Assembly (NCBI GenBank): GCA_905221615.1
Contig: CAJNDT010000982.1
Location: 40,727-104,726, forward strand
Origin: Symbiodinium sp. CCMP2592
Taxonomy: Eukaryota; Sar; Dinophyceae; Suessiales; Symbiodiniaceae
Direction: 5' to 3'
Length of the DNA stretch: 64,000 bases
Shown here: piece by piece, positions 1,509-61,347 of the stretch
How the letters are laid out: the number at the start of each line of letters is the position of its first letter
Position numbering within the stretch: position 1 is the first letter of the stretch
The notes under the pieces: generated by a model
What the model was told of the DNA's origin: nothing
What the model saw: only the letters and a program-made list of their open reading frames with translations
The model's database searches: none
Position numbers and translations under genes: made by a program

Positions 1509-3012
1509 TCTATGCAGCGTGTCCTGCGGCGGTGGCCGCGTGAGCAGTGCGGCCGCGCCGCCCTGCACAAGGCTCGGGCACGACTATCAACTCGAATCTG
1601 CCAAAAAGCTCCCATGAGTGATTGCATCAACGTGCAGCTGTAGCTGAATCCAGTCTAGTCATCTCTGCGGGGCCATTGCAAGCTTCTCTGCAGGCGCCCA
1701 CACTGCACAATCTGTTGCTCATGCCGCTGTAACGTGTGAGAGGTGACCATCAGACTACTCAGTGCAGACTCCACTCAATTCGGGATCCGCCGAAAACCAG
1801 AGCTCTGTTCAAGGGACGAAGGCCAGGAGAGTGGCCCTGGCCTGAGGCGGCGGCCGTGTAAGTAGTGCTGCCGCGCCGCCCTTTGCCAAGAGAGTCCAAG
1901 CCGCGCATCTTGCATGCTGTACTGAAACGAGGCTCCGGTGTCTCTAACATGACTCTTGGCCGACTCAACACAGGCATAGCTCTTCCTCCCGAAAAACACT
2001 GCAGCAGCTCCTGCGGCGGTGGCCGCGTGAGCAGCGCGGCCGCGCCTCCCTGCAGAAAGAGGCAGAAAGAGAAGGCACGGGCACAGACAAAGCTGTCGCC
2101 CGTCTCTTGCATACTGGAATCTGCCAGGAAGCTTTCATCGTCCTATGGTGGGGCATCTCAGTTTTGCTCTGTAGGCGCCCACACTGTTGCTCATGCCACT
2201 GCAACGTGTGAGAGGTGACCATCAGACTACTCAGTGCAGACTCCACTCAATTCGGGATCCGCCGAAAACCAGAGCTCTGTTCAAGGGACGAAGGCCAGGA
2301 GAGTGGCCCTGGCCTGAGGCGGCGGCCGTGTAAGTAGTGCTGCCGCGCCGCCCTTTGCCAAGAGAGTCCAAGCCGCGCATCTTGCATGCTGTACTGAAAC
2401 GAGGCTCCGGTGTCTCTAACATGACTCTTGGCCGACTCAACACAGGCATAGCTCTTCCTCCCGAAAAACACTACAGCAGCTCCTGCGGCGGTGGCCGCGT
2501 GAGCAGCGCGGCCGCGCCTCCCTGCAGAAAGAGAAGGCACGGGCAAAGGCAAAGCTGTCGCCCGTCTCTTGCATACTGGAATCTGCCAGGAAGCTTTCAT
2601 CGTTCCTATGGTGGGGCATCTCAGTTTTGCTCTGTAGGCGCCCACACTGTTGCTCATGCCACTGCAACGTGTGAGAGGTGACCATCAGACTACTCAGTGC
2701 AGACTCCACTCAATTCGGGATCCGCCGAAAACCAGAGCTCTGTTCAAGGGACGAAGGCCAGGAGAGTGGCCCTGGCCTGAGGCGGCGGCCGTGTAAGTAG
2801 TGCTGCCGCGCCGCCCTTTGCCAAGAGAGTCCAAGCCGTGCATCTTGCATGCTGTACTGAAACGAGGCTCCGGTGTCTCTAACATGACTCTTGGCCGACT
2901 CAACACAGGCATAGCTCTTCCTCCCGAAAAACACTACAGTAGCTCCTGCGGCGGTGGCCGCGTGAGCAGCGTGGCCGCGCCTCCCTGCAGAAAGAGAAGG
3001 CACTGGGTTTTC
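1509..3012. repeat. Tandem array, unit about 470 bp, three good copies
   Basis: The landmark TGCGGCGGTGGCCGCGTGAG recurs at about 1524, 2011, 2482 and 2946. A second landmark, GCGGCGGCCGTGTAAGTAGT, recurs at about 1845, 2318 and 2782. The last three copies are nearly identical (a few indels), the first is diverged and the last is cut off near 3012. Each unit contains two GC-rich segments with inverted-repeat character around CGCGGCCGCG. Open frames across the array repeat the same peptide in each copy and are judged a by-product. Confidence 0.85.
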
Positions 3013-4973: not shown

Positions 4974-6102
4974 TCAGTCTTCCTCCTCCTGGCAGCAAGA
5001 GTCATCGAGTTATGCAGATAATGGATCTTGAAGCTTGCCTCTTCAGCGGCTGCCTGAACAGCCACGGTGTCCAATTCGCGCTGGCCCTCCTGAGAATAAC
5101 TGTCAAACACCTTTGGCCAAATGGCAAACTTGGAAGCACACTTTCGCTGCAATCGTCCTTCGTGATCATTCGGCCGCCCTGCTCGTCGTGCTCTACCAGC
5201 CCCATCTCCTGGCAAGCATGCCTTGCTCATGCTGTGCGTCGTGCCTGTGCACAAGGCGCTCGGCATCGCAGGCATGGGCGAAAACGCGAACATCGCATCC
5301 TCCAGCTGCTGCAGAATGTACCGCGCGATCTTGCCAGAGGATTTGGTCTTAGTCAAGAGGCGATGGTCTCTGATGGTAACCCCCCAGCACCCCCAGAGAC
5401 GAGCCCCGGGCAAAGACATTGGTGCAGGTACCTCGGCGCTTCTGTCCTCCGTACACCTTCTTGAAGGCACCTTGCATATCCAACTCTGATGACTATGATC
5501 TTCTGCTTCTCTGAGCTCTGCCGCGCTGACCTGCTGGCCTCACTGGCCCCAGTGCAGCCGAGCTGCCAACGCCCATGCCCTTGCGAATGTAGATCTTTCG
5601 CACCATGGACGCCGTTCTGACGTACAGCCAATCCGGATCCTCGAAGTGAAACGAAAATCACACTGATGCATGCGATGCCTTCCCTGTCCCTTCTCCTGCA
5701 GCTTGTCAACTGGTCTAAACCCCGAACCCGAAACCCTAAATCCCAAAGCTTGGAACCAGGGCAGTTTCAGATATCCAATAAGTAAAGTCCATCCCCACCT
5801 TAGTGGCAGCCCAGGCACGGAAGGTGGCAGCTCCTTTGCCTTGCTCGTCTTTACCACATCCGCCCACTTCGGCAGCTCAAAGCGGCCTCGAGTTGCACAT
5901 GCCATGTGCAGTGGCGGGCGGTGTCCTTGCCGTGCCTTGGCGCTTGAGGTGCTGGGAGAATGCCTTGATGAACTGCTCAGGCTCAACGTCCTTTACGGTC
6001 ACGATCTTGCGGCCCTCCTGCGGAAGGATGCAGCTCTGCCCGCGCAGAGCTCTTTGCACTTCCGGGCGCCTTGAAGTAGTTGTCAAACACCTCGATGGAC
6101 AT
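4974..6102 (-). CDS. RPS19: 40S ribosomal protein eS19, copy A (nine exons)
   Basis: Small-subunit ribosomal protein eS19, cytosolic. Exons (minus strand): 6058-6102, 5936-6017, 5819-5886, 5564-5639, 5391-5470, 5300-5329, 5158-5208, 5039-5089 and 4974-4988 with the stop. Together they give 498 nt, 165 residues, all phases consistent. Diagnostic eS19 blocks are in order: [23 protein letters not shown], then [68 protein letters not shown] and an acidic EEED end. Introns are 40, 49, 179, 93, 61, 91, 68 and 50 bp; donors are GC, GC, GT, GC, GT, GA, GA and GC. The least certain junction is exon 5 to 6 (an acceptor 18 nt upstream would add six residues). The start was chosen as the first ATG, which lies just inside the duplicated tract. 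Confidence 0.93.
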
Positions 6103-6104
6103 GG
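5155..6104. repeat. 950-bp direct repeat, copy 1 (eS19 exons 1-7)
   Basis: Matches 6638-7587 at a constant offset of 1483 bp with only a handful of differences (for example around 5649-5651, 5690-5703 and 6043). It starts 3 bp inside intron 7 and ends 2 bp upstream of the start codon, so it covers exons 1-7 plus introns 1-6. Intron 3 contains a telomere-like stretch (CCCGAAACCCTAAATCCCAA) in both copies. Confidence 0.95.
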
Positions 6105-6334: not shown

Positions 6335-7585
6335 TCAGTCTTCCTCCTCCTGCAAACCAGAATGTGCAATTACCAATCGATGCGGAGGATTGCGGAGGTG
6401 GCATTGTTCCCCAAGCTCTGACGAGACCAGATGAATATCTGATGAATGGCGAAGACTGATGAACAGTGAAGCTCGCTTGCATGGCACTGTTGCCGAAAAC
6501 GTGACAAAGCATCCCACCTCCTCCGCAGCTGCCTGCACTGCAACTGTGTCAAGCTCTCGCTGACCTTCCTTCAAAACAGACATCATCGCACTATGCCGCG
6601 GATCCCAACAAAAACACATGTGGTTGCAGGGCTCGCGGTCCTTCGTGATCATTCGGCCGCCCTGCTCGTCGTGCTCTACCAGCCCCATCTCCTGGCAAGC
6701 ATGCCTTGCTCATGCTGTGCGTCGTGCCTGTGCACAAGGCGCTCGGCATCGCAGGCATGGGCGAAAACGCGAACATCGCATCCTCCAGCTGCTGCAGAAT
6801 GTACCGCGCGATCTTGCCAGAGGATTTGGTCTTAGTCAAGAGGCGATGGTCTCTGATGGTAACCCCCCAGCACCCCCAGAGACGAGCCCCGGGCAAAGAC
6901 ATTGGTGCAGGTACCTCGGCGCTTCTGTCCTCCGTACACCTTCTTGAAGGCACCTTGCATATCCAACTCTGATGACTATGATCTTCTGCTTCTCTGAGCT
7001 CTGCCGCGCTGACCTGCTGGCCTCACTGGCCCCAGTGCAGCCGAGCTGCCAACGCCCATGCCCTTGCGAATGTAGATCTTTCGCACCATGGACGCCGTTC
7101 TGACGTACAGCCAATCCGGATCCTCGAAGTGAAACGATATTCACACTGATGCATGCGATGCCTTCCCTGTCCCTTCCCCTGCACCTTGTCAACTGGTCTA
7201 AACCCTGACCCCGAAACCCTAAATCCCAAAGCTTGGAACCAGGGCAGTTTCAGATATCCAATAAGTAAAGTCCATCCCCACCTTAGTGGCAGCCCAGGCA
7301 CGGAAGGTGGCAGCTCCTTTGCCTTGCTCGTCTTTACCACATCCGCCCACTTCGGCAGCTCAAAGCGGCCTCGAGTTGCACATGCCATGTGCAGTGGCGG
7401 GCGGTGTCCTTGCCGTGCCTTGGCGCTTGAGGTGCTGGGAGAATGCCTTGATGAACTGCTCAGGCTCAACGTCCTTTACGGTCACGATCTTGCGGCCCTC
7501 CTGCGGAAGGATGCAGCTCTGCCCGGGCAGAGCTCTTTGCACTTCCGGGCGCCTTGAAGTAGTTGTCAAACACCTCGATGGACAT
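6335..7585 (-). CDS. RPS19: 40S ribosomal protein eS19, copy B (nine exons)
   Basis: Second eS19 gene, same strand, upstream of copy A. Exons: 7541-7585, 7419-7500, 7302-7369, 7047-7122, 6874-6953, 6783-6812, 6641-6691, 6518-6568 and 6335-6349. The protein is predicted to be the same length as copy A. Exons 1-7 are almost identical in DNA to copy A, but exon 8 differs at 12 of 17 codons, all synonymous (for example GAG GGC CAG CGC in A, GAA GGT CAG CGA in B). Intron 8 here is 168 bp with a GT donor, against 50 bp with a GC donor in A; intron 7 keeps a GA donor but is otherwise unrelated. This indicates that old paralogues were homogenised over the shared tract rather than a fresh whole-gene duplication. 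Confidence 0.93.
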
Positions 7586-7587
7586 GG
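6638..7587. repeat. 950-bp direct repeat, copy 2 (eS19 exons 1-7)
   Basis: Partner of 5155-6104. Sequence similarity stops abruptly on both sides. Confidence 0.95.
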
Positions 7588-48922: not shown

Positions 48923-48927
48923 CTGGC
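48923..48927. repeat. Target-site duplication, left (CTGGC)
   Basis: CTGGC directly abuts the left LTR and recurs exactly at 61343-61347 after the right LTR. Five bp is the usual copia duplication length. Confidence 0.93.
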
Positions 48928-49079
48928 TGAAGTTTCCCAGGCTACCAGCTTGGCACGTCTAGTTACCGGTCAGTCAACCCTTGTGACCTTTTTCCACGGG
49001 GGACTTGGGCCAAGTGCGGTCGCGTAAAGACATAGCTAAGGACCATAGGAATAGCAATGGAGGCAGGGTAAAATCTACA
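48928..49079 (-). repeat. 3' LTR
   Basis: 152 bp, identical base for base to 61191-61342. Unusually short for such a large element. Confidence 0.97.
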
Positions 49080-49090
49080 CCCCCCTCGCC
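49080..49090 (-). promoter_or_regulatory. Polypurine tract
   Basis: Reads GGCGAGGGGGG on the minus strand, immediately before the TGTAGATTTT start of the 3' LTR; expected primer site for plus-strand DNA synthesis. Confidence 0.85.
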
Positions 49091-49228
49091 GTGCTGCTCG
49101 AGCTAAGGCGGATAGTACATGGCTCCAGGTTGCCCTGGGCTTCAACGGATTTGGGAATTTGCCAAAGCGAGCATTTATAAAGCACAACGGGGAAGCCCTG
49201 CAGGTCCGAAGCAAATCAGAATGAGGAC

Positions 49229-52200
49229 TCAGCGCCTATGGGTGCGGTTCCATGCATCCCACTCGGCCTGAGTGTAACCTCCACGACGCTGGCGATAGTA
49301 CTCGTCCCACTGGGCCTGAGTATAGCCTCTGTACATGGGCTCAGGTGCTGTCGTGCGACCACGTCCCTTTTGGGATGGGCGATTCTGGACTGCAGCCTGG
49401 CGATTGCGCTCTGCCAGACGTTCCGTTTGGTCTGTCTGGTCCTGAGCACTACGGAGGCTGTCGGTAAGAATCTGTCCGATCTCAGTTGTGATGCCTTCAA
49501 TTGTGGTAGCCGACACATAGACTTCGCCGTCGAAAGTCAGGATCCTTTTTGCAGCGTCATTCACTGCTGCCACCTCAGCATAGAGTCGCGGAGGGAGGAA
49601 TGCACCGAGGTAGGTCAAGCCGATGGGGACATCCGCGGTATCATCGATAAACCGCAAGTTCCTCAACGGCTCCACTTCGCAGTGGGCATAATAGACCAGC
49701 TTCGCAGGCGGGACATTGCCACCACCATAATGGGAGCCAGCACGCAAGTAGCGCTGCTCCTCACTGCGTCCTGGATCGGGAAGCACAGCGTTCGACAGGT
49801 GATCGAATTTCTGCATGTCCTCAAGGCTGCGGCCCTCTTGCATCATTCTCACGTTGAACTGCGCGTCCTTCTCGAAGCGGTCGGACACGGTGTCAAAGTT
49901 CAACTTGGCGGCCCTGATCTTTCGGTCTTTGGCGTCACGAATGGCGGCGGCCTCCGCGCTCATCTGACCACGTTTCTTTGGTCCCTCGCCCAGGCCTCGA
50001 AGGTCACTCGCAAGGAGATCATCGATGGGCTTCTGGGCTCCAGTCGCAGCGGTGGCAAGAAGGCGCTGGCGGAGTCTCGAATTCTCAAAGACTCGCTTTG
50101 TGATTTTCTTGGAGTCATCCGTCTGGGGAGCCTTGCAACGGAGGCAGAACAGCATGCCATTGGCAACGACTGCTGCGCACTCGCGGCATGGGTGAGAGCC
50201 AAGTGGGTACGGCTCATCCTCACCCGCATCCGTTGTATCGCCTTCATCGACTTCGACCTCAACCTCAACCTTGGTTTCGTCAAGATCGAATGCACCAGCA
50301 GCATCAGCAGGCTCACCCTCGCGGGTGGCTTCATCCAAGTCCATGCTTTCGTCCTTTTCGGCGATTGCGGCGGGCTTGGGAACCACCTTCGGCATCTTCT
50401 TTGAAGCAATCGCTTTGGGAGCGATAGCCGCCTGTTTTGGGGGCGGTGCCGATGATGAGCTTGCTGCTGCGGCCTCCTCATAGTCGCGCTTTGCGCGGAA
50501 AATGCGCTCTGGCTCACCCTCGCGGGCGGCTTCTTTGTGCTCGGCGACGTAGAGCGGGAGGTTCTTTTTGCTGGTGTCGATGGCGGACAGCACGCAATCG
50601 GGAGGCACATTGTCCCGTGTGAGGACGCCGTCGGTCTCCGTGACGAAGAAAACGCATCCAGCGGCGATTGCTCGCTGCGTGTCTATCGTCAGCTCGATCG
50701 GCTGGTTGGAGCGCATTCCACTCTTGTAGTGGGTGTCGTCCAACTTGTACGGGGACAGGTAGTTGTGGGACCTGTCTGACCTCGCGGAGCCGGCGATCAT
50801 TCCATCGCGGAGGATACCCTTCATTCCCTTTTCGTTCGTGCGGTGGAAGAGCTTTGGGGGGGTATCCTCGCGGGAGAGCACAGTGACCCCCCTGACGCTG
50901 CTCTGCAGGTCGGCCTCGTACTCGGGCAATCCGCTGTAGAACCTGGTCGCAAGGAAGAAGTCCGCGTCCGGGTTATTGCCGATGAGCTTGGAGTTATGCC
51001 CTTGGGCCATCCTCACTCTGACAGGGAATAGCGGTTGACCCAGGGTGTCCTTCATTGGGACGTCAATGCCCAAAAGTCTGATCCGTCCCTTATTATCGGC
51101 TTTCGCTGCGCGTAGCAGCTGCCTCACACCCCAGCGTGCGCCTCGTGCCGTGTTGAAGACCTGGAGCAGAGTGTCGACGTCTGTCCAGCACCCACGGTCA
51201 AAGATCAATGCAGGGAAGTCGTCCATTTCATGGCCACGCAGCAGCTTGGTGAGAAACTTCAGGTCTCCGTGTTTGAATGTCACGTGCCTGTCTCCTACAA
51301 TGTCCTCCGGGTTGAAGGGCTTCATCAAGTGCTTCTTGCCATTGTAGAAGTACTCATTTGGAAGCTCTGGCACAGTGGCAGCCCCTTGCGGGGCGCTTTC
51401 ATCGATGAACATGAGCCTTCGCATGGCATCCTCGTCTCGATCAGACTTCTTAGTCTTCTTCGGAGGCGCTGGCTCAACGACACGTCCAATCGATGAGGGG
51501 ATAGGGTCGACCTGGTCGCCCTCGTCCACCAGCTCCACCGTGCCCGGGGTGTTGTAGGACACCTTGCCGTCTGCGTCCTGGGTGACGATGTCATTGACGC
51601 ATTCCGCCACAGCACTGACGTCCGTGGTTGCACCGATCCTTGGCACATCCTTGCGGATGGCTTTATCCATGGGTGGCCCCTCGGAGATCTTATTGACGTC
51701 GATTGCGTCAGCGGCATCTGGGGCTTCCCACATCTTGTCCTCCTGGGTGACCGGCATTGGCTTGGCCTGTTTCGGGTTCATCAGCTGGTCCTTCTCTGTA
51801 CGCCACTGCTTGAAGACATCATCGAGCACTGGATTGTTGGCATCGGAGCCAGTCTCAAAGTGCTCATAGCGAACAAGCAAAGCCCTGACACAGGGTGCCA
51901 TCTTCTGGGCAAGCCATTCGCTCCTGCTTGCATTGATAGTCGCATGCAAGTAGGTCTGGAATAACTCGCGGTTGCGAGGGTCTTCGCTGGCGTGAAAGCT
52001 GTCATACATTTCCAGCTTTTCGACCAAGGAGCTTGCGGTTTGCACTTGCAGACCGCGCTGCCTGAACTCTTCGAACATAGCGGCATTGAAGTCGTTGTAG
52101 GCTGAGTGGAGTTGGAACAAGTCCGCCTCCACCTGCCCAATCACCTTCACAAAACCAATGTCCGGCTCGCCCGCGAGGGCGGCTAAAACATCCGCTGCCC

Positions 52201-55200
52201 TTCTCACTTTCCGTGCGACGGTCTCCGTTGTGACATTGGGATCTCTGTAGGCGAGTCCCGGTCCTAGCCGCGTGGGGATGCAGCCCCACTGGCCGGAGAT
52301 CTCGTTCCCGCACCACCAGCAGATTATGTCGATGGTGTGGTCCGGATAGTTGCTCCTGAGCTCCTTCACATGCTCCTCGACCTGCCAGACAATCCACGCC
52401 AAGGTTTTACCCCAACACATGGTATAGCGAGTCTGTGCCCATCCCAGCGTAAAGCTTGCGATGTTCACTTCCGCATCCAAGTCGGCCTTAACGAACACTC
52501 CCCGCCTGTTCTTCTTGCAAAGTGCAGTGGAGCTGTCTGACACGACTATGATGGCTCGCTTGGCCTTGGGGCTCAACCTTGCGGTTGGCTTCAACTTGGC
52601 GAGTCCCTCGTCACTGAGGTCAGCCATCTGGCGCAGAGCCACACAGGTTGCGTCGGCATGGGTCAAGGATACCCCAGCCGCGCATTGTGTGGATACGCAG
52701 CTGTACGCCGACTCCAAGAGCTGGCTCTCATGATCGGCGCCGAGCGAAATGATATCGTTGTTGAGGGCGGCGGATTGGAGAATGGTTTTCATGGCCTTGG
52801 TAACCCCATTCCTGTCTGCTTCGGAGGTGTTGACCCTGCAGAACTCGTCGCTCACAACGATGGCTGCCATCTTGGGGATCGTAGAAGTCGCTTCGGGCAA
52901 GTCGAGAAGATCAGAACCAGCTGAAATTGCAATGGCAGGCGTGCACATAAAGAAAGCCAAGATTTCATGGTCAAGGCTTGCAGTTTGTTGTGTGTTTGTG
53001 CACTCGAGCGATGTGTGTGCAAACGAATCATTTTCGAAACGAGAACACGGTTTGTTAAGCCTACCCCCCTCATCGAGAGGGGAACCAACACACCTCAAAC
53101 AAACCATTGCCTTCTGAGCTGGGAGCTTCAACTGAGCCGTAGGCAAGAGGAACTGCGCTTGATGTAGGAATTGCTTTTGCTTTTTGTTGAACTTCTGGTA
53201 CCCCCCTGAAGAGTAGGCGATGAAGGAATGTCGTTCGCCAGTGTAGGGTTGTACACCATGTTTTGTCGATGGATGCAACAGAGTGGGCTTGCGGTATGTG
53301 TTGCAATTGTAGCCTTTGTGGTCTTTGCCATGATCATCTGTGTATATTCCCGGTGGTCCCAACTGGCTCGCGCCCTCAATCCACAGTGTCCCCCCTGTAT
53401 AGTTACCGAAGGAGAACGTCAGGTTGTACGATTCTTTCTGATTGTACTTATCCGTGTGGATGCGGGCCTTGCCATTGAAGTTGAACACGAACGAAGTCCA
53501 TGTAAACCCTTTCGGAGATGATTGCTTAACAAATCCATTCACATACCTGCAAATCCATGGATAATGTTTTGTGCGGTTGGTAATACCAAAGCACCCACCA
53601 TGGACCCAAGCGCCGAACACCAAGTATTTGGATAGATTCTCAGAAGCCATAAATGACCGCGTTTTTGCCAATGATGCCTTGAGATTGGTACGAATAAGCC
53701 CAGCTAGCTTTTCGAAGGTCTTGAAGCTGTAATCGTTAGCCTCGAACGATTGTTGAGCGAAGTCCTCGACAACCTTTGATGCATCCGGAGCTGCTGCTAC
53801 CGAAACCTTGTTGTCAACCTCGACCTTCGACTCGGGTTTGCACCCGGCTACGTTCGCGCTGGTTGTATGTCCAATAAGCTTCAAGGCATGCGTCCACTTG
53901 TTCTTTTCAGTGAAAGGCTTCGTGAACACATCCGCCACTTGTTCGGCTGTACCAACATTCAGTAACTTGAAATGCCCGACCTCATATTGCTGCTTTAGCC
54001 ATGAGAAACTCACCCTCTGTGTCCGATCAGTATGTCGTAGAACACCAGCTTGCCCTAGCAACAAAAGAGTGATTGTCGCCTGGTTATCCTCCATATGTCT
54101 AACCTCGAAACTTTCAGGAAGCTGGACACAGAGGCCGTTGATGTCTGCGATTGACAACCCATCCGGTCTAGTGGACCCGTAACGAATTTCGTCAAGTTCA
54201 GGGTCAATGCGTGCAACTATCGAATCCACCCTCTCAGCCCTTGGCTCGGCCTTGCGGCCGGCATCTCCACGCCATAGGAAATACCATAAGCTCAGGCAAG
54301 GTAGACCTTCGGCACGTAAACCGTGATTCGCTGCTACAACTTCGGACTCAGTAGAGCTCATTGTAATAGATGTTTGTTTCTTGCTGAAGGCATTGAGGGG
54401 AAAGTACGTGTTTGGTCCAACCAAAAACATCGCACATCCTGTAGTCGATTTTGAATCGAATTCGCCCGCAAAGTCGGAATCGCTGAACAACCACAGTCTG
54501 CAATCCATTATGCTGTCGCCTATGAAACCGCTCATAGTGACATCAAGCGAAGAGTTTATGTAGCAAACCAACCTGTGAAGTCCCAAGTCGCAATCTGGAC
54601 TCCACTTGGTCACCCTCGACGCTAAAGACTGTGTTGCCCTTAGAAGGTCCCATCTGGCCATGCGAGCAGCGAACAAAATCTTCATTAGTACCTTACTAGC
54701 AATAGGTTGCAAGCGCCCTGCCTTCTCTCCTTCGGAAGCTGTTGGCAAAGCCACACGTAGCTCATGGAAGGGGGTTGCAGCTGGTTTCAGGGTCTTACGC
54801 TCTACCTTAGCAAGCTCGCAGTACCGATCAACGCAAGAGTCGAGAAAGTCCTTCATATCGTACGTGATGCGAGCGACTGGCTTGGTCATTGCGCCGGGCT
54901 TCTCTTTAACGTCTTGCGACAATGTAACGAACTTGCTCTGCTTCGCCTCCTTTTTAGCCTCAGACTTGTTACGAACCGGCTTGCCCTTGCGGGCAGCTGC
55001 AACTGCCAGCTCGAAATCAGACTGTTCCCGGCCTGCGAGGTCGAAGTAGGTTTCGCCGTCCCACCAATCCTGAAGACAGCGATCGCGCATTTGATTGCAA
55101 CTGTCAACAACAACTTCCTCCGACTCACCCTTGCGGGTGGCTTTAGCCACCACAGTGTATCTCCGAGGGCCGATCCCCGGAAACATTCTAGCATCATCCT

Positions 55201-58015
55201 CGTTGGGGACATAAAGTCTTTTGCGAGGATAACGGTGATGTCGGATTGCTATGAGATTCTCGGGGTCAATGTCCCAATAGTCTTCTTTTCTAGCAGGAGT
55301 TGCAGCTGATGATTCGGGCTCAAACACGTGACGAAAAGGGTGTGCTTCCTTGGGCAGCGTGAGGTTGTGTTCTTCCTTGTGCATGCACCCAAAGTATCTA
55401 CCAATGGCTTCCGGAAGATCCATATCAATGACGCTCGAGATCAAGTCCCATCCCTCCTTGATAGAGTTCTTAGGGCCAGCGAGTTTAAAGTCATCGACGT
55501 ATACCACTAAAAGCAGCTTCTTCTTCGGGTGGTAGAATACACTCTTCCAAATGTCAGTCAATACTGCCTCGAACCCGACTTTCTTCAACTCAGCTTCGCA
55601 ATGATGTTCCCAAATCCCCCCTGAATCGGGGTGTCCGTAAAGTGCCAACTTGAGTGGAACAACAGGATCTTTCATGCCCTGCCATGCCTTAGGCCAGCGA
55701 TTGCGAGGCAACCGTACCCAAGTGGCAACCCCTTGGAACAAAGCTTGGGTGTATGCTTGCTTGGCGTCGGCCTGCTGGATGATGTAGCCAGGTTGTGAGC
55801 CAAAGACGTCAAGAATCTTTCCTGCTTCCATAGATGCAGGACTGCTCGACATCTCCGCAAAGAGCGCGTGATCGGCGTTTTCATCAAGTACTTTATTTCC
55901 CTGAAATACCGAACGTCCCTTATACTTACGGTTGGGGTCGCCTTCTTTCAGCTCGGCTCCCTTTAGGGTACCAATCTCAAAAACATTGCCAAAGTGAACC
56001 TTGGTTTGAGATTTCTTAGCTTCGTTGGCAACCGACTCGAACTCCCTGACTTTGCCTTGTACCCAGCAGCCCTTGTCAACCAATTTCTGCCATTCTTTGT
56101 CCATGGCAGCCTGCGCCTTAGGGTTTGTTGCAATCTCCTTAGACGACAGGACCTTGGCGACAACAGCATACATCTCATCTGCGATCTGAAAAAGCTTCTT
56201 GTCATATAGCCCTTTGAGTCGTTCCCGATGTTCCTCGCTACACCCATGTAGGACTGGCATTGCAGGTACCGCCTTTACAGCTTCACGATACAGTGCCTCA
56301 TTCTCCTCATGTAGCTTCTTCTCATGTTCTGCAATTGCTGTTGCTCTTTGTCTTTTCGACATAGCCTTCCATGCAGTATGATCAATAGCGTTAGGGCGGT
56401 TCTTGTTGTTCTTCTTGACCAAACATTCCCCACTCCACGTATAACCATACGGTGGTTCTTGCGCTGCTACTGCTGCGCTGGACTTCAGCTTCTGCTTCAC
56501 AGAGAACGGAACATCATCAAGCAATGCTGCACGGGAATCAGACTTTGACTCACCCTTGCGGGTGGCTTCTTTCGCGTCCTTCGGCGGAGGATCTTTATCA
56601 CGATCAGGACCAAATAGCTCTGGGAACATTTCATCCAGGTCTTCGCTAAGTTGTTCCTGAATTGTGGCTTCATCGTATCCCCCCCCTTCCTCCAGAGGAG
56701 GATGCGGGTTTTGCTCATCAAGGACATTGTGATGTTGTGCATCAAGGCTTGGTGGTTTATCCAAGGCAGGCTCTTGCAACAAAGGAAACTTAAAGTCACC
56801 ATCTGGTAGCTCCAGTCTCTTAGTCCGAAACACACGTAGATCTTCATTTTCCAACGCGGCTTCGATGTTGTGTAGGGGAGCAACAACGTACTCGAGCTTG
56901 AAGATAAAACCAGGTTGGATGTGATACCCAAGGAATATACCTTCAATCCCTGTGCCAGCAAACTTGGATCGTTCAGGCTTGCGTTGCTTCTTCGGGGCCC
57001 AATAGAGAACTTTCGCTCCAAAGGGAATACGCATGCCATTGAACTTTTCACCATACCTGATTTCCCACGGAATCTGACCATTGTCAATCCTCGCAGTGAT
57101 GTTAAGACACATAGCATGATGTTGCGATGCAAGAGGCCAATAGCGATCTGGAAGTCCTGATTGCACTAGATTGGCCCGTGTGCCTTCCAAAATTGTTCTG
57201 ATTTCTCGCTCGATTACGGCCTTGTTTTCGTTCACATACTCTCTAGAAGTGTTGTGACGAGCGCGAAGCTGTCTGGCCGCAAAGTCAAACTCCAACGCAT
57301 TGTCGGAATATATAACCTTTACCTCATCATCTGTACCAAGGAAGTGCAACATGTCTTCGTAGCACTGCTCACCAGACTTTGTCTTGGAAGGGTACACGTA
57401 TCTAAACTTGGAATACACGTCCTTCACAACATGAGCCACGGTTTCATCTTGGAACCCGTAGTCCTTGGCATCAGCGGTCACGATGTGATCTACTGTGATG
57501 TGGTCACCGAACGATTTACTGTAGATTGTAGAGGATCCACCAGATTTACGCGCCTGGGGCGCATACATCTTGGCCCTTTGGCAAATGGGGCAGAACGGAT
57601 TCTTTGGTCTATGGGTAAGTCGATGTTCCAAAGACACAGCCTCAACCCTCAAGGAAGCTTCATCCTTCTTAGACTTTGGCATTGTGTATGGCTCGACATC
57701 GCTGTCGGCTTGCGCCTCAACTTCCCCTTCAGGCAAAGCAAACAATGTGATAGTCGCAATAGTCCCTTCAGGTACTTCCCCATAGATTCCGTCCAATTCA
57801 TCAATGTTGACTGAATCCTCCAACAAAGACCACACGTCATCCTTGAATCCCCAAGTAGTCCGGATTCTATACCTTGGGAACTTAGGAGCCGGTGTTCTAA
57901 ACGTCTTTGGGAAATGTGCCACCTTAGCAGCGGGGCTGCCGTTGATGACAGTCCAACCTGCCTTTAGCAGTTGCTTCGTTTCCACCCCAGGAATGGGAGG
58001 AATGCAATTCGCCAT
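49229..58015 (-). CDS. pol: Pol polyprotein: integrase, RT, RNase H, 2OG dioxygenase, SGNH-like, Tpt1/KptA-like, zinc ribbon
   Basis: A 2928-codon frame from its first Met; the frame is open further upstream to the slippery site, so it is probably made only by -1 frameshifting. Integrase: zinc ligands H131, H135, C142, C145 and acidic triad D176, D238, E269. Reverse transcriptase: first Asp D750 (QQADAKQAY) and YVDD at 839-842. RNase H: D1181 with SSTESE and MEDNQA following, ending in DVFTKPF. Then a double-stranded beta-helix dioxygenase (about 1480-1610: H1520, D1522, H1586, R1595); an SGNH-like segment (about 1815-2000: VVSDSS, CGNEISGQWG); a Tpt1/KptA-like domain (about 2245-2475: KLLR with R2260, AQGHNS with H2340, NVPPDCVLSAI); a zinc ribbon (C2610, C2613, C2624, C2627); and a C-terminal doublet of GYTQA.WD. 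Between domains the chain is acidic and low in complexity. The copia core is certain, the cargo assignments are from motif reading. Confidence 0.93.
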   Translation of the reverse strand: MANCIPPIPGVETKQLLKAGWTVINGSPAAKVAHFPKTFRTPAPKFPRYRIRTTWGFKDDVWSLLEDSVNIDELDGIYGEVPEGTIATITLFALPEGEVEAQADSDVEPYTMPKSKKDEASLRVEAVSLEHRLTHRPKNPFCPICQRAKMYAPQARKSGGSSTIYSKSFGDHITVDHIVTADAKDYGFQDETVAHVVKDVYSKFRYVYPSKTKSGEQCYEDMLHFLGTDDEVKVIYSDNALEFDFAARQLRARHNTSREYVNENKAVIEREIRTILEGTRANLVQSGLPDRYWPLASQHHAMCLNITARIDNGQIPWEIRYGEKFNGMRIPFGAKVLYWAPKKQRKPERSKFAGTGIEGIFLGYHIQPGFIFKLEYVVAPLHNIEAALENEDLRVFRTKRLELPDGDFKFPLLQEPALDKPPSLDAQHHNVLDEQNPHPPLEEGGGYDEATIQEQLSEDLDEMFPELFGPDRDKDPPPKDAKEATRKGESKSDSRAALLDDVPFSVKQKLKSSAAVAAQEPPYGYTWSGECLVKKNNKNRPNAIDHTAWKAMSKRQRATAIAEHEKKLHEENEALYREAVKAVPAMPVLHGCSEEHRERLKGLYDKKLFQIADEMYAVVAKVLSSKEIATNPKAQAAMDKEWQKLVDKGCWVQGKVREFESVANEAKKSQTKVHFGNVFEIGTLKGAELKEGDPNRKYKGRSVFQGNKVLDENADHALFAEMSSSPASMEAGKILDVFGSQPGYIIQQADAKQAYTQALFQGVATWVRLPRNRWPKAWQGMKDPVVPLKLALYGHPDSGGIWEHHCEAELKKVGFEAVLTDIWKSVFYHPKKKLLLVVYVDDFKLAGPKNSIKEGWDLISSVIDMDLPEAIGRYFGCMHKEEHNLTLPKEAHPFRHVFEPESSAATPARKEDYWDIDPENLIAIRHHRYPRKRLYVPNEDDARMFPGIGPRRYTVVAKATRKGESEEVVVDSCNQMRDRCLQDWWDGETYFDLAGREQSDFELAVAAARKGKPVRNKSEAKKEAKQSKFVTLSQDVKEKPGAMTKPVARITYDMKDFLDSCVDRYCELAKVERKTLKPAATPFHELRVALPTASEGEKAGRLQPIASKVLMKILFAARMARWDLLRATQSLASRVTKWSPDCDLGLHRLVCYINSSLDVTMSGFIGDSIMDCRLWLFSDSDFAGEFDSKSTTGCAMFLVGPNTYFPLNAFSKKQTSITMSSTESEVVAANHGLRAEGLPCLSLWYFLWRGDAGRKAEPRAERVDSIVARIDPELDEIRYGSTRPDGLSIADINGLCVQLPESFEVRHMEDNQATITLLLLGQAGVLRHTDRTQRVSFSWLKQQYEVGHFKLLNVGTAEQVADVFTKPFTEKNKWTHALKLIGHTTSANVAGCKPESKVEVDNKVSVAAAPDASKVVEDFAQQSFEANDYSFKTFEKLAGLIRTNLKASLAKTRSFMASENLSKYLVFGAWVHGGCFGITNRTKHYPWICRYVNGFVKQSSPKGFTWTSFVFNFNGKARIHTDKYNQKESYNLTFSFGNYTGGTLWIEGASQLGPPGIYTDDHGKDHKGYNCNTYRKPTLLHPSTKHGVQPYTGERHSFIAYSSGGYQKFNKKQKQFLHQAQFLLPTAQLKLPAQKAMVCLRCVGSPLDEGGRLNKPCSRFENDSFAHTSLECTNTQQTASLDHEILAFFMCTPAIAISAGSDLLDLPEATSTIPKMAAIVVSDEFCRVNTSEADRNGVTKAMKTILQSAALNNDIISLGADHESQLLESAYSCVSTQCAAGVSLTHADATCVALRQMADLSDEGLAKLKPTARLSPKAKRAIIVVSDSSTALCKKNRRGVFVKADLDAEVNIASFTLGWAQTRYTMCWGKTLAWIVWQVEEHVKELRSNYPDHTIDIICWWCGNEISGQWGCIPTRLGPGLAYRDPNVTTETVARKVRRAADVLAALAGEPDIGFVKVIGQVEADLFQLHSAYNDFNAAMFEEFRQRGLQVQTASSLVEKLEMYDSFHASEDPRNRELFQTYLHATINASRSEWLAQKMAPCVRALLVRYEHFETGSDANNPVLDDVFKQWRTEKDQLMNPKQAKPMPVTQEDKMWEAPDAADAIDVNKISEGPPMDKAIRKDVPRIGATTDVSAVAECVNDIVTQDADGKVSYNTPGTVELVDEGDQVDPIPSSIGRVVEPAPPKKTKKSDRDEDAMRRLMFIDESAPQGAATVPELPNEYFYNGKKHLMKPFNPEDIVGDRHVTFKHGDLKFLTKLLRGHEMDDFPALIFDRGCWTDVDTLLQVFNTARGARWGVRQLLRAAKADNKGRIRLLGIDVPMKDTLGQPLFPVRVRMAQGHNSKLIGNNPDADFFLATRFYSGLPEYEADLQSSVRGVTVLSREDTPPKLFHRTNEKGMKGILRDGMIAGSARSDRSHNYLSPYKLDDTHYKSGMRSNQPIELTIDTQRAIAAGCVFFVTETDGVLTRDNVPPDCVLSAIDTSKKNLPLYVAEHKEAAREGEPERIFRAKRDYEEAAAASSSSAPPPKQAAIAPKAIASKKMPKVVPKPAAIAEKDESMDLDEATREGEPADAAGAFDLDETKVEVEVEVDEGDTTDAGEDEPYPLGSHPCRECAAVVANGMLFCLRCKAPQTDDSKKITKRVFENSRLRQRLLATAATGAQKPIDDLLASDLRGLGEGPKKRGQMSAEAAAIRDAKDRKIRAAKLNFDTVSDRFEKDAQFNVRMMQEGRSLEDMQKFDHLSNAVLPDPGRSEEQRYLRAGSHYGGGNVPPAKLVYYAHCEVEPLRNLRFIDDTADVPIGLTYLGAFLPPRLYAEVAAVNDAAKRILTFDGEVYVSATTIEGITTEIGQILTDSLRSAQDQTDQTERLAERNRQAAVQNRPSQKGRGRTTAPEPMYRGYTQAQWDEYYRQRRGGYTQAEWDAWNRTHRR

Positions 58016-60423
58016 CTTTTCGATGGGATCTTCTGCCGCGCCAGCTGGACCTTCAGGTTCATGTTCGTGCTCTCCCCTAGCTGGTGCGGCGTGCCCTTGC
58101 GGGCAGCTGTTTACCGAAAACCCGAACCAGACTTGACAGAGGTCGGTGCAACCTTGCTGCCATCAGATTCTGAGGACTTTGCTGCTAAGCATGCCATCAA
58201 TGGTCCTCGGTCGCCAAATACGGGGACATTGCCTCGGAGTTGGCAAATCATCTTCTGACCGTCTGGGCAAATGAAATATGGCGCCTCACCCGCTGGCCAG
58301 TGGAAAGAGAACCCCTGTTCCATGCACTTCTTTCCTACAGAGCAAACTGCAGGTGTGTTGGGGAGCTCAACGAACTGCAATGGGTTCCTCAATGACTCAA
58401 TGTAGACTTCATGCTTGGTATCAGCGTCTACTGGTCCGTTAGCAGTGATCAAACTCACTGGGTTGGAAGCAACCTTCTTAGCCTTGCCCTTGAAATGGGC
58501 CTCCAAATCAGAGTGACTAATCAGATCTTCCTCGCTACCGGTGTCTGCGATGATTTCGAGGTTCTCACCTGTCACCGCCGCTGCAGCAAGTTGGGGCAGG
58601 GGAATTGCTTCTTTGCAGTGAATGCAGAATCCTTCTCTACCCCGACACCTGTAGTTACACTTGACCCGAACCTTAAGCTTCATCCCGTTCACTGCTGATT
58701 CCAAGTGACGGGCATTCTGCAAAGCTTCTTCGGTGTCCTCTGGAATTGATGGTGGGCATAGCTCCGCAGACTTGTACCTGAATTCGAACTTGTGCTTGTC
58801 TGGTACGAAGCTCCAGCCTTCACCCTCAGGCGGGATGTCAATGATTTCTGGCCTTAGGAACTGGACTTTCCTGCTTCGGGGCTTTCCGGCAGGGCCCTTG
58901 CGGGCTGCTACTGCGTAGGCCTTCACAGCATCGGCCGGTGGCTCACCCGTGAGGGTGGCTGTGAGGGAAAGACAGCAAGCGGCTGGCTTGTCCTCACTCT
59001 TTGGCCTTTTCTTACTGGGTCGCCTGCGCTTGCCGGAGGGCGATCTCTTCCCGTCCTTGCCAGCCTTATCGCCTTTGGCCGGGACAGAGGGAGCGGCATC
59101 CTTGTGCATGAATGGGCAATTCTTACCGTTCTTGCAGGTGCCTTTGGGGTAAAAGATGCAAGGAATCTTGGAGGTATCCTTCTTCTCCCCACCTTTACCG
59201 CCTTTACCTCCACCTTTTCTCGAAGGGGTACGTGGAGGTGTTCTGCCCCTTGTCTGTTCAGGAGTAGGCTTCACATGCTTGTATGGGCACTTATCACCTC
59301 GTGGGCACTTCCCACGCTGGAAAGCGTAGCAGGGCTTGTCCTGGCTTCGGCCGCGAGGGGTGTTCGGGGTATCGGAAGGAGCAGGGGCACCAAATCTGGC
59401 GCCATGAGCTTTGGCGATTGCTGTGCGGTTTTTGCGAGTCCTATCTCTAGCCAACAGCTCTTTCACGCATTTGACCAAGTAGTCATAAGTGCGTTGCTCT
59501 GTTCCTTCCTTAGCCCTGTCGTAAACCTCCAGATCAAACTTGAGCTTGCTAGCATTGCGAAGCTGACGAAGTAGAATATCTCTCAGCGTAGTCTCCTCGG
59601 GTTGGTGATTCAACCCCGCGATGACCGACTCCCAGTTGTGAATGAAAGTGCTAAGGTCATCACCATTCAACTGCACCTTGAGTAGATCTTCTACAGAGTA
59701 GAGGGAGCCTGCTTCTTCGTTGGTCTTAAAGTAGTGTTCGAACATCAGTAGAACCTGTCTACCACGAACGGCCCTACCAGCAGCTGCCTCAGACTCCTTG
59801 TAGTTAATGATCTGTCGTCCAAGATCACCCCTAGCAACCCTCGAGAGCGCCGAAAGGATCTTCGTGTCCAAAGTGAGGAATTTACCCGTGTCCCTCAACT
59901 TCTCCGCATCGGCGTCCCTGGAGTAAACCTCTTGAACCCATTTGAATGCCTCATCGGGTCTGTCCGATGCTGCCCGAACGGCCTCCCTAACTGTGATCTT
60001 CCAGCTCCTATAAGTCTCCGGGTTAGGGAAGTCGGGTAGCTTCACCGTTTCAGCTTCCTTAGCCTTGGGTTTGTCGTCATCAGGCTTCTGGATAACCGAC
60101 TTGAGTGCTTCAGCGAGAAGTACGCTAGGTTCTTTGTTTTCAGTAGATTCTGCCGGTTCTTTGTTATCACTCTGTTCAGCAGCAGATACCGCTACATTGT
60201 GGGCCTTGGTATCCTCAGGCTCTCCAATGTCATACCGTTGGGTCCTTCCCAAAACCGTCCGAAGCGACACAGGAATCTCCCTGGGGTTCGGAAGGGTCGG
60301 AATCCATGAATGGCTAGGACCCTGAACAAGCGGCGCTGCGGCACCACCTTGCGGTGGGCTTGGTTGAAGTTTGGAGCTCTCACTGGGATCGACTTTCACC
60401 GGCACGGCACCACCTTGCGGTGG
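50315..60423 (-). repeat. Family of 14 dispersed GNRA-type hairpins inside the two ORFs
   Basis: Each unit is stem-loop with a 4-5 bp stem and a tetraloop, mostly GCAA or GCGA on the element strand, usually flanked GCC...GAGCC. Positions: 50315-50326, 50516-50527, 51381-51394, 52169-52180, 52575-52586, 54248-54259, 54983-54994, 55127-55138, 56552-56563, 58093-58104, 58894-58905, 58945-58956, 60344-60357, 60410-60423. Stems vary with compensation: ACCC/GGGT, GCCC/GGGC, GGCC/GGCC, AACC/GGTT, CCACC/GGTGG, GCCCC/GGGGC (50516 has one G-T pair). At 52169 and 58945 the loop is reverse-complemented (TCGC, TCAC). Units are read in different frames (AxRKGE, PPQGGA, PTARLSP, LxGEP), so the conserved thing is the nucleic-acid hairpin, not a peptide. 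Confidence 0.85.
58092..58123 (-). promoter_or_regulatory. Programmed -1 frameshift site with downstream hairpin
   Basis: The slippery heptamer G GGT TTT (plus-strand 58117-58123) is in the exact X XXY YYZ phase of ORF1, followed by CGG and the ORF1 stop TAA (58111-58113). Slipping back one base enters the ORF2 frame, which has no stop from here to the ORF2 Met at 58015. Eleven nt after the heptamer lies a 5-bp hairpin TGCCC-GCAA-GGGCA (58092-58105), a member of the dispersed hairpin family and a possible stimulator. Confidence 0.85.
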
Positions 60424-61164
60424 GCTACTCTCCGCTGTCGACAAGACAGTCCTGAGTGAGTCGACCTCAGCTATAAGCTCCGCGTTCCTGTCCTGCAGGT
60501 CATCAACCAAGCTATCGTACTGCTGTGCCTCAGAGGTTAGCCTATGGTAGTACTCGTTTTCTTCCCATTGAAGCTTTTCCTCAAACTCAGACCCTAAAAA
60601 GGCAATCATCTCACTGTGGTTTTCTTCGATACTCGAGCGCAATTCCGCGAAACGGCGTTCATGCTGTCTGTTTTCCGCAGTGAGCGTGCGCGCTGCTGCT
60701 TCCAGCTCGGACCGATGTGCATCAAACTGCATGGCCATAGACCTTTCATCATGACTTTCCCCTTGTGCGCGTGCCAGCTGTGCCTGCAGCTCATTGGCTG
60801 ATTGTCGTTCTGCTCGGGCGATTGTCTCTAGCACTCGTACTTCATTGTGTAGCTGTCCCACCAACAGGTGTGTGGATTGGCTCACAAATGCTAGCTGTTG
60901 ACGATGATTCGCATCCGCTGTTGCCTCTAGGTGTGCAATGTATGCGTTGGCTTCGGCGTACACGTTGTCCAATGCAAATCGATGTCGTTGTTCCGCGCGA
61001 AGCTCCAAGGCACTTTGAATGCGGGGGTCATTCAGGAACAAGTTCACCTGAGTATTCTCCTGCAACAAATGCAAGAAGTACTGGTTCGCTTCCTGCTCCG
61101 TCCTACCACCAATACCACCGTCATCGTTGTTGCCCGCGGCCGTTACAAACGGCACGATGTCCAT
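58111..61164 (-). CDS. gag: Gag-protease protein (ORF1, 1017 residues)
   Basis: Residues about 20-250 are a long heptad-like, Ala/Glu/Arg-rich coiled coil. Residues about 370-570 look like a copia Gag region (LPDFPNPETYRSWKITVREA start, ending near LARDRTRKNRT). Two CCCH zinc fingers of the C-x7-C-x5-C-x3-H type follow, C612/C620/C626/H630 and C669/C677/C683/H687, each in a Lys/Gly-rich linker; most Gags have CCHC knuckles instead. An aspartic-protease motif (IADTGSEEDLI, D874) is near the C-terminus, so protease is made with Gag and not with Pol. The chosen Met is the first in the frame, 26 bp after the 5' LTR, and ends at the TAA next to the slippery site. Expected role: virus-like particle assembly, RNA packaging and polyprotein processing. 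Confidence 0.93.
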   Translation of the reverse strand: MDIVPFVTAAGNNDDGGIGGRTEQEANQYFLHLLQENTQVNLFLNDPRIQSALELRAEQRHRFALDNVYAEANAYIAHLEATADANHRQQLAFVSQSTHLLVGQLHNEVRVLETIARAERQSANELQAQLARAQGESHDERSMAMQFDAHRSELEAAARTLTAENRQHERRFAELRSSIEENHSEMIAFLGSEFEEKLQWEENEYYHRLTSEAQQYDSLVDDLQDRNAELIAEVDSLRTVLSTAESSPPQGGAVPVKVDPSESSKLQPSPPQGGAAAPLVQGPSHSWIPTLPNPREIPVSLRTVLGRTQRYDIGEPEDTKAHNVAVSAAEQSDNKEPAESTENKEPSVLLAEALKSVIQKPDDDKPKAKEAETVKLPDFPNPETYRSWKITVREAVRAASDRPDEAFKWVQEVYSRDADAEKLRDTGKFLTLDTKILSALSRVARGDLGRQIINYKESEAAAGRAVRGRQVLLMFEHYFKTNEEAGSLYSVEDLLKVQLNGDDLSTFIHNWESVIAGLNHQPEETTLRDILLRQLRNASKLKFDLEVYDRAKEGTEQRTYDYLVKCVKELLARDRTRKNRTAIAKAHGARFGAPAPSDTPNTPRGRSQDKPCYAFQRGKCPRGDKCPYKHVKPTPEQTRGRTPPRTPSRKGGGKGGKGGEKKDTSKIPCIFYPKGTCKNGKNCPFMHKDAAPSVPAKGDKAGKDGKRSPSGKRRRPSKKRPKSEDKPAACCLSLTATLTGEPPADAVKAYAVAARKGPAGKPRSRKVQFLRPEIIDIPPEGEGWSFVPDKHKFEFRYKSAELCPPSIPEDTEEALQNARHLESAVNGMKLKVRVKCNYRCRGREGFCIHCKEAIPLPQLAAAAVTGENLEIIADTGSEEDLISHSDLEAHFKGKAKKVASNPVSLITANGPVDADTKHEVYIESLRNPLQFVELPNTPAVCSVGKKCMEQGFSFHWPAGEAPYFICPDGQKMICQLRGNVPVFGDRGPLMACLAAKSSESDGSKVAPTSVKSGSGFR

Positions 61165-61173
61165 TACGGAGCT

Positions 61174-61190
61174 AACTACGGCTGATAACC
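61174..61190 (-). promoter_or_regulatory. Primer-binding site
   Basis: Directly after the 5' LTR the minus strand reads GGTTATCAGCCGTAGTTAG. GGTTATCAGCC is complementary to an anticodon arm (GGCTGATAACC) and not to a tRNA 3' end. It resembles the copia PBS (GGTTATGGGC...), which pairs with an internal part of initiator tRNA-Met, with one difference from an initiator anticodon arm (GGCTCATAACC). Confidence 0.6.
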
Positions 61191-61342
61191 TGAAGTTTCC
61201 CAGGCTACCAGCTTGGCACGTCTAGTTACCGGTCAGTCAACCCTTGTGACCTTTTTCCACGGGGGACTTGGGCCAAGTGCGGTCGCGTAAAGACATAGCT
61301 AAGGACCATAGGAATAGCAATGGAGGCAGGGTAAAATCTACA
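61191..61342 (-). repeat. 5' LTR
   Basis: 152 bp, identical to 48928-49079. On the minus strand it starts TGTAGATTTTACCCTGCC and ends GGGAAACTTCA. Confidence 0.97.
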
Positions 61343-61347
61343 CTGGC
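61343..61347. repeat. Target-site duplication, right (CTGGC)
   Basis: Exact partner of 48923-48927. Confidence 0.93.

Follow-up and report, generated by a model that had tools for sequence, protein, structure and literature searches.

A TET/JBP-like dioxygenase domain in the pol polyprotein of a Copia-type retrotransposon of Symbiodinium

We analysed a 64,000-nucleotide stretch of the Symbiodinium sp. CCMP2592 genome (contig CAJNDT010000982.1; the window, with positions counted from its first letter) and found that a complete Copia-type long terminal repeat (LTR) retrotransposon on its minus strand encodes, within the pol polyprotein, a predicted 2-oxoglutarate (2OG)/Fe(II) dioxygenase domain. 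The dioxygenase core sits between RNase H and a Tpt1/KptA domain in one frame, and at least three families of such elements in this one genome have a dioxygenase at that place behind RNase H. We put at about one in two (roughly 0.5) the probability that pol holds a functional TET/JBP-like dioxygenase that oxidises a base methyl group, most likely that of 5-methylcytosine (5mC) or else that of thymine, in element DNA and so evades or reshapes silencing.

The dioxygenase domain and its conservation

The core comprises residues ~1463-1605 of pol (53201..53629, minus strand), as delimited from motifs, the structural model, conservation and selection. A reading made earlier from the letters alone (the sequence-only reading) had placed a dioxygenase at 53140..53580; the domain does lie there, although its core begins slightly earlier. 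The motifs HTDKY (residues 1520-1524), GNYTGGTLW (1537-1545) and KHGVQPYTGERHSF (1585-1598) contain the iron triad HxD...H and the distal 2OG arginine, that is, H1520 (codon 53456-53458), D1522 (53450-53452), H1586 (53258-53260) and R1595 (53231-53233). These four ligands, which the sequence-only reading had reported to be in place, stand unchanged in all 14 rows of alignment A6, the most distant of which is 31% identical to the window, and they are likewise retained in element families 2 and 3 described below. The rows of A6 were chosen for domain coverage from 65 retrieved proteins (P0003-P0014, P0015-P0027, P0028-P0066), with truncated ones excluded. The further claim that the domain comes after RNase H within one frame holds as well; RNase H was recognised by eye from DVFTKPF at residues 1362-1368, where Pfam called RVT_2 only.

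Protein searches retrieved 12 long polyproteins and 13 short proteins as relatives, and 52 proteins when an alignment was used as query. The public gene models P0009-P0013 end or change sequence within the dioxygenase domain, which may reflect gene-prediction splicing. Two distant rows, P0059 and P0056, are dioxygenase relatives in a different context; in P0059 an integrase core (PF00665, a sub-cut-off 24.1 bits) follows downstream of the dioxygenase, a second domain arrangement. The domain itself was recognised by none of Pfam, NCBIfam and PHROGs, searches of PDB sequences, whether with the window's domain or with alignments A4 and A6, gave only weak unrelated matches, and scans of IMG/VR together with tblastn against phages found no relatives.

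An AlphaFold model of residues 1430-1640 (53096..53728, minus strand), built from the 14-row alignment, is a double-stranded beta-helix with a predicted local distance difference test (pLDDT) score of 72.2. A model from 8 close rows (pLDDT 35.2) was unusable and was set aside. The PDB structures matched by Foldseek and VIA-align are 2OG enzymes with TETs in the lead: ranks 1-12 in Foldseek are CcTet chains, and ranks 1-3 in VIA-align are NgTet1, with AlkB within 1 Z. The Foldseek matches also include the Pseudomonas putida prolyl 4-hydroxylase (P4H; E 3e-4). On the strength of the model, we assign the domain to the 2OG/Fe(II) dioxygenase superfamily with its beta-helix fold; the predicted jelly roll, the best structural matches to 2OG enzymes and the conservation of the H/D/H/R residues in related elements all agree with the sequence-only claim of such an enzyme in a retrotransposon polyprotein.

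When we searched the host genome (1.098 Gb, 5383 contigs), we found at least 151 matches to the dioxygenase domain (best 150 of 4205 candidates scored). Among the matches listed, 45 rows of family 1 span all 211 residues at 89-100% identity and are stop-free, family 2 is ~39-41% identical with open frames of 3187 aa, family 3 is 35-37% identical with open frames of 3166 aa, and stops occur in three rows. The RNase H-dioxygenase arrangement, which we sought in other elements, is kept in families 2 and 3: in every one of six loci examined (three from each family) the similarity to pol continues through the dioxygenase, at ~54% over residues 3-1627 in family 2 and ~50% over residues 10-1651 in family 3, and goes on at ~24-25% downstream.

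To measure selection, we compared 14 family-1 copies (L030-L043, hand-picked across 89-99% identity from the 45 full-length rows among the best 150 of 4205) with the window copy. Pooled over these pairs, the ratio of nonsynonymous to synonymous differences per site (pN/pS) comes to 0.14 for the core and 0.02 for RNase H, with 0.29 for the linker that precedes the core and 0.62 for the stretch just past it, values drawn from a source listing that favours good domains and from pairs that share the window copy and hence are not independent. The core changes comprise 158 synonymous and 79 nonsynonymous differences, with stops in 0 of 14 copies. The core is 78.3% identical to both P0007 and P0008, and its flanks are 57 and 53% identical to P0007 and 57 and 33% to P0008. 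These comparisons indicate that the dioxygenase domain is under purifying selection as part of the element. With the four ligands unchanged throughout A6, even at 31% identity, and no core stop in 14 copies, we take the domain to be more than a product of chance.

TET/JBP affinity of the domain

We compared the residues of the domain with those of TET enzymes as given in excerpts of PMC11040006. The cofactor contacts of CcTet are H326, D328, H376 and R385; three residues past the aspartate (D+3) stand Gly331 in CcTet, Asn1387 in hTet2, Asp234 in NgTet1 and Asp350 in CMD1, and four past that position Ser238 in NgTet1 and Thr354 in CMD1. Six residues past the arginine (R+6) the residue is Phe391 (CcTet) or Tyr1902 (hTet2), and at R+8, which contacts the base O2, it is Arg393 (CcTet), His1904 (hTet2) or His297 (NgTet1) (PMC11040006). 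In the window we find N1525 at D+3, S1529 four past it, Y1601 at R+6 and S1603 at R+8; N1525 and Y1601 match the hTet2 base-contact positions, S1529 matches the serine of NgTet1, and the H-to-R spacing of 9 is that of CcTet. Across A6, D+3 is Asn in 13 of 14 rows and R+6 is Tyr in all 13 rows that have a letter there; in element family 3, R+6 is Phe, as in CcTet. With the TETs that are its best structural matches the domain shares HxD...H...R, an Asn or Asp at D+3 (as in NgTet1, whereas CcTet has Gly) and an aromatic residue at R+6, which is Phe in CcTet and Tyr in hTet2; however, it is only 13-16% identical to CcTet and NgTet1, is smaller and has neither His nor Arg at R+8.

As controls we used alignments of 7 rows each, from phages, plasmids and Escherichia coli: A8 (phage Tet_JBP), A9 (PKHD) and A10 (AlkB). 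The Tet_JBP label of A8 rests on a sub-cut-off Pfam match, one product name and the figure legend for Cooper gp2 (excerpts of PMC12730594), to which the phage Nigel is linked as a Coopervirus. The element family and 6 of 7 phage Tet_JBP rows share an equally spaced WTSxV...HxDxxN block, which is not present in the PKHD rows shown. When an element-family profile was run with hmmsearch, all 7 TET controls came out on top (9.2-13.4 bits), ahead of the best PKHD (3.8) and the best AlkB (-0.8).

The host genome itself contains relatives with a Tet_JBP match. A search with PF12851 gave 4 matches (best 150 of 155 candidates) at E 2.2e-4 to 3.0e-4 and 29.2-29.6 bits, against a cut-off of 34.9, and none in 14 control genomes. 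All four lie in open frames of 1231-1283 aa and match the dioxygenase family profile at 59-77 bits; in BLASTP they align with pol residues ~1466-1622 of the window at 24-25% identity, with E-values of 1e-10 to 1e-14 that come from a tiny target set (five subjects). When two 709-aa stretches were scanned with Pfam, no family other than Tet_JBP matched at E up to 1, and the full 1283-aa frame gave a weak RVT_1 match in addition. Sequence comparison indicates homology between the dioxygenase family and proteins for which Tet_JBP is the best curated match, albeit below cut-off.

These loci are repeats (L050-L053 and L054:3911-7759) with a sub-cut-off Tet_JBP match, to which L054 adds weak RVT_1 matches; when L050, L053 and L054 were scanned for PF12851, they scored 26.7, 26.4 and 25.7 bits (cut-off 34.9). 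In L050 we noted by eye C5-methyltransferase-like motifs (VEVFSG, PPC and ENP) after the Tet_JBP match, and Pfam DNA_methylase gave no match in the L050-L054 repeats. Possibly, these repeats combine a writer and an oxidiser in a single retroelement.

Proposed activity and its rivals

Beyond the fold, the Fe and 2OG ligands, the purifying selection and the position shared among families, we infer base oxidation. The dioxygenase would be produced as part of pol and would oxidise the methyl group of a nucleic-acid base, most likely 5mC (or thymine), in element DNA; new or resident copies would thereby escape or reshape host silencing that is based on DNA modification. Symbiodinium DNA is ~70% CG-methylated, and its transposons are enriched in CH methylation, which the few active copies mostly lack (excerpts of PMC5890265), so that the element has reason to carry a 5mC oxidase. 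In Breviolum minutum, another of the Symbiodiniaceae, 5-hydroxymethyluracil (5hmU) is enriched over most repeats (excerpts of PMC11071213), which makes thymine worth considering as a substrate. We examined whether methylation escape had left a footprint of CpG depletion; the CpG content of this young element does not differ from that of its flanks, which leaves no footprint either way. Known Tpt1/KptA enzymes act on RNA, so with such a neighbour in pol an RNA substrate is possible as well.

Several observations weigh against a functional TET/JBP-like enzyme. Five of the 12 long polyproteins (P0009-P0013) end about halfway through the dioxygenase domain, the long polyprotein P0014 is without the core, and several of the 13 short relatives are broken pieces. 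The R+8 position has no TET match (Ser in 10, Ile in 1, Val in 1 and a gap in 2 of 14 rows), a contact that is variable among TETs and not strictly defining. The window domain gives no PF12851 (Tet_JBP) match; the phage control Nigel gp2 also falls below the cut-off (26.5 bits versus 34.9). Because the cut-off is not reached, we call the domain TET/JBP-like and do not file it as a Pfam member. The sequence-only reading had based its TET/JBP resemblance on GxYxGGxL and HGVxPxxGxR signatures; TETs do lead the structural matches, but these signatures are not TET/JBP-specific, since every row of the PKHD control A9 likewise has YxGGxL and HxV...GxR. In default hhalign comparisons with A6, PKHD (probability 58.2, E 9.8e-5) is slightly ahead of TET (41.6, E 2.7e-4), with AlkB far lower (3.9, E 0.011), and with families 2 and 3 included the order is again PKHD 41.3, TET 37.6 and AlkB 22.5.

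A PKHD/P4H-type protein hydroxylase acting on Gag, Pol or a host protein would fit these shared motifs and default scores, as well as the P4H among the Foldseek matches and the P0059 domain, which is in register with the PKHD hydroxylase 3dkq (E 0.29); with families 2 and 3, PKHD reaches E 1.9e-5 by default and 1.6e-4 without context pseudocounts, E-values obtained, like all those of the runs without context, from tiny target sets. However, hhalign without context puts TET first, both with A6 (TET 37.2, PKHD 31.0, AlkB 21.8, where 100 column shuffles per comparison reached at most 22.0, 23.0 and 23.2) and with families 2 and 3 (41.1, 35.5 and 19.3). The twelve CcTet chains that come first in Foldseek, the profile scores of at most 3.8 bits for PKHD controls, and Tyr or Phe instead of Trp at R+6 likewise speak against PKHD, as does Pfam, in which neither 2OG-FeII_Oxy_3 nor PKHD_C matched at E up to 10 while the control YbiX of E. 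coli matches both; we regard a protein hydroxylase as rather unlikely. An AlkB-like RNA or DNA demethylase (for example of N6-methyladenosine, m6A), comparable to that of orchid Ty3/Gypsy elements, is very improbable: the RxxxxxR motif that marks AlkB (excerpts of PMC9289625) is absent, R+6 being Tyr wherever a row has a letter there (13 of 13), the AlkB value of 21.8 lies within its shuffle null, and Pfam 2OG-FeII_Oxy_2 was not found. AlkB membership was rejected on this motif and the profile scores. Membership of TET/JBP is likely, though short of proven; TET/JBP is preferred over PKHD and AlkB is disfavoured, again short of proof.

Dinoflagellates are known for 5hmU, and a JBP-like thymine hydroxylase that makes 5hmU in element or genomic DNA, marking or shielding copies, shares all of its fold evidence with a 5mC oxidase. 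The 5hmU enrichment over Breviolum repeats fits such an enzyme, and Asn at D+3 could face C or T; our results fit T and 5mC alike, and the solved structures nearest to the domain, those of CcTet and NgTet1, belong to enzymes that act on 5mC. We hold a thymine hydroxylase to be a tentative second choice. A catalytically dead fold retained as a binding or structural module would be in keeping with the truncation of the domain in some copies and gene models; it is the least probable of these explanations, given cofactor ligands that are invariant in A6 and also retained by families 2 and 3. A broader proposal, that high-copy dinoflagellate retrotransposons carry the base oxygenases of these genomes (TET/JBP-like in pol beside an RNA 2'-phosphotransferase), which would hydroxymethylate T or 5mC and so write some of the long-unexplained landscape of 5hmU or oxidised 5mC in dinoflagellate DNA, seems to us unlikely.

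Comparable enzymes are known from other elements. TET/JBP genes occur in fungal DNA transposons (Kyakuja, Dileera, Zisupton, Helitron and others), and a 2025 survey of such genes carried by transposons reports, in the excerpted text, no instance in a retrotransposon (Kojima 2025, PMC12730594). Those fungal enzymes are likewise element-borne 2OG/Fe(II) dioxygenases of TET/JBP type, thought to oppose silencing by DNA methylation; however, they are separate genes in DNA transposons and Helitrons, whereas here the domain is fused into the pol of a dinoflagellate LTR element. The Ty3/Gypsy elements of orchids, whose ALKBH5-like m6A demethylase is active in vitro, are also LTR elements with their own 2OG/Fe(II) nucleic-acid oxygenase, but that enzyme is of AlkB type with RxxxxxR and is encoded by a separate open reading frame of a Gypsy element, in contrast to a TET-like domain after RNase H in Copia pol (excerpts of PMC9289625). 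SymbioLINE-Dnmt and SymbioDIRS-Dnmt3 are, like the present element, Symbiodinium retrotransposons with a DNA-modification enzyme; theirs are methyltransferases in LINE and DIRS elements rather than a dioxygenase in Copia, and in the excerpts of that paper the Copia superfamily is without any DNMT domain and the word dioxygenase does not appear (PMC5890265). In the open PMC papers searched, no title or abstract mentions an LTR pol with a TET-like domain; subscription papers and preprints lay outside that search. If our reading is true, retrotransposons too have acquired base oxidation, through a TET-like enzyme in LTR pol selected in at least three families, and the domain would be a testable candidate for the origin of modified bases on dinoflagellate repeats, where 5hmU is enriched (PMC11071213).

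The element and the rest of the window

The element spans 48927-61343 on the minus strand, with paired LTRs and gag and pol frames. Its LTRs form a 154-nt direct repeat at 100% identity, the 3' LTR at 48927..49080 (LTR proper 152 nt, 48928-49079) with termini TGTAGATT...AAACTTCA, and the 5' LTR at 61190..61343 (proper 152 nt, 61191-61342). Because the LTRs are identical at 152 of 152 nt, end in TG...CA and carry a 5-bp target duplication, GCCAG, on the outer side of both, the element is young and intact, as the sequence-only reading had held, and its pol frame is open. The purine-rich tract GGCGAGGGGGG precedes the 3' LTR. After the 5' LTR comes GGTTATCAGCC, and the primer-binding site was left unassigned; the sequence at 61160-61190 (minus strand), GGTTATCAGCCGTAG, might be a primer site of half-tRNA type. 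The sequence after the 5' LTR presumably resembles an anticodon stem-loop, a likeness that we used for no assignment. In the 64-kb window aragorn found no tRNA genes, and an Rfam scan found nothing at gathering scores.

The gag frame (58111..61164, minus strand; 1017 aa) has, by Pfam, a pair of CCCH zinc fingers, whereas Copia gag usually has a CCHC finger, and a weak aspartic-protease-like match at residues 862-926. The pol polyprotein is one open frame of 2928 aa (49229..58015, minus strand) with an RVT_2 reverse transcriptase at residues 695-875 (55391..55933; PF07727, 33.3 bits, cut-off 31.6), which together with the LTRs and the short target duplication are Copia traits. The sole sign of an integrase upstream of the reverse transcriptase is a sub-cut-off SH3_retrovirus match at residues 331-365.

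Downstream of the dioxygenase, residues 2253-2467 (50615..51259, minus strand) form a Tpt1/KptA RNA 2'-phosphotransferase domain (PF01885, 44.6 bits, cut-off 26), which the sequence-only reading did not mention. When cut out, it scores 52.1 bits and matches PDB 7kw8 (E 1.8e-5) and PHROG 5470; it is also present in families 2 and 3 (32.3 and 37.5 bits, one locus each scanned). We take the Tpt1 catalytic set to be R-H...R...R, and the window has RGHE at the place of RH; the later Arg residues are conserved in all 3 rows of alignment A3. To our knowledge, Tpt1/KptA in a retrotransposon is unusual. A further region conserved in alignments A3 and A7 (51836..52573, minus strand) shows by eye the SGNH-hydrolase-like motifs SDSS, GNE and YDxFH; neither Pfam nor PDB sequence searches supported an SGNH hydrolase at residues ~1816-2050, and we treat it as a lead only. 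Elsewhere in the window there are two direct duplications, 5155-6104 / 6638-7587 (99.3% over 950 nt) and 1712-2543 / 2184-3007 (97.6%).
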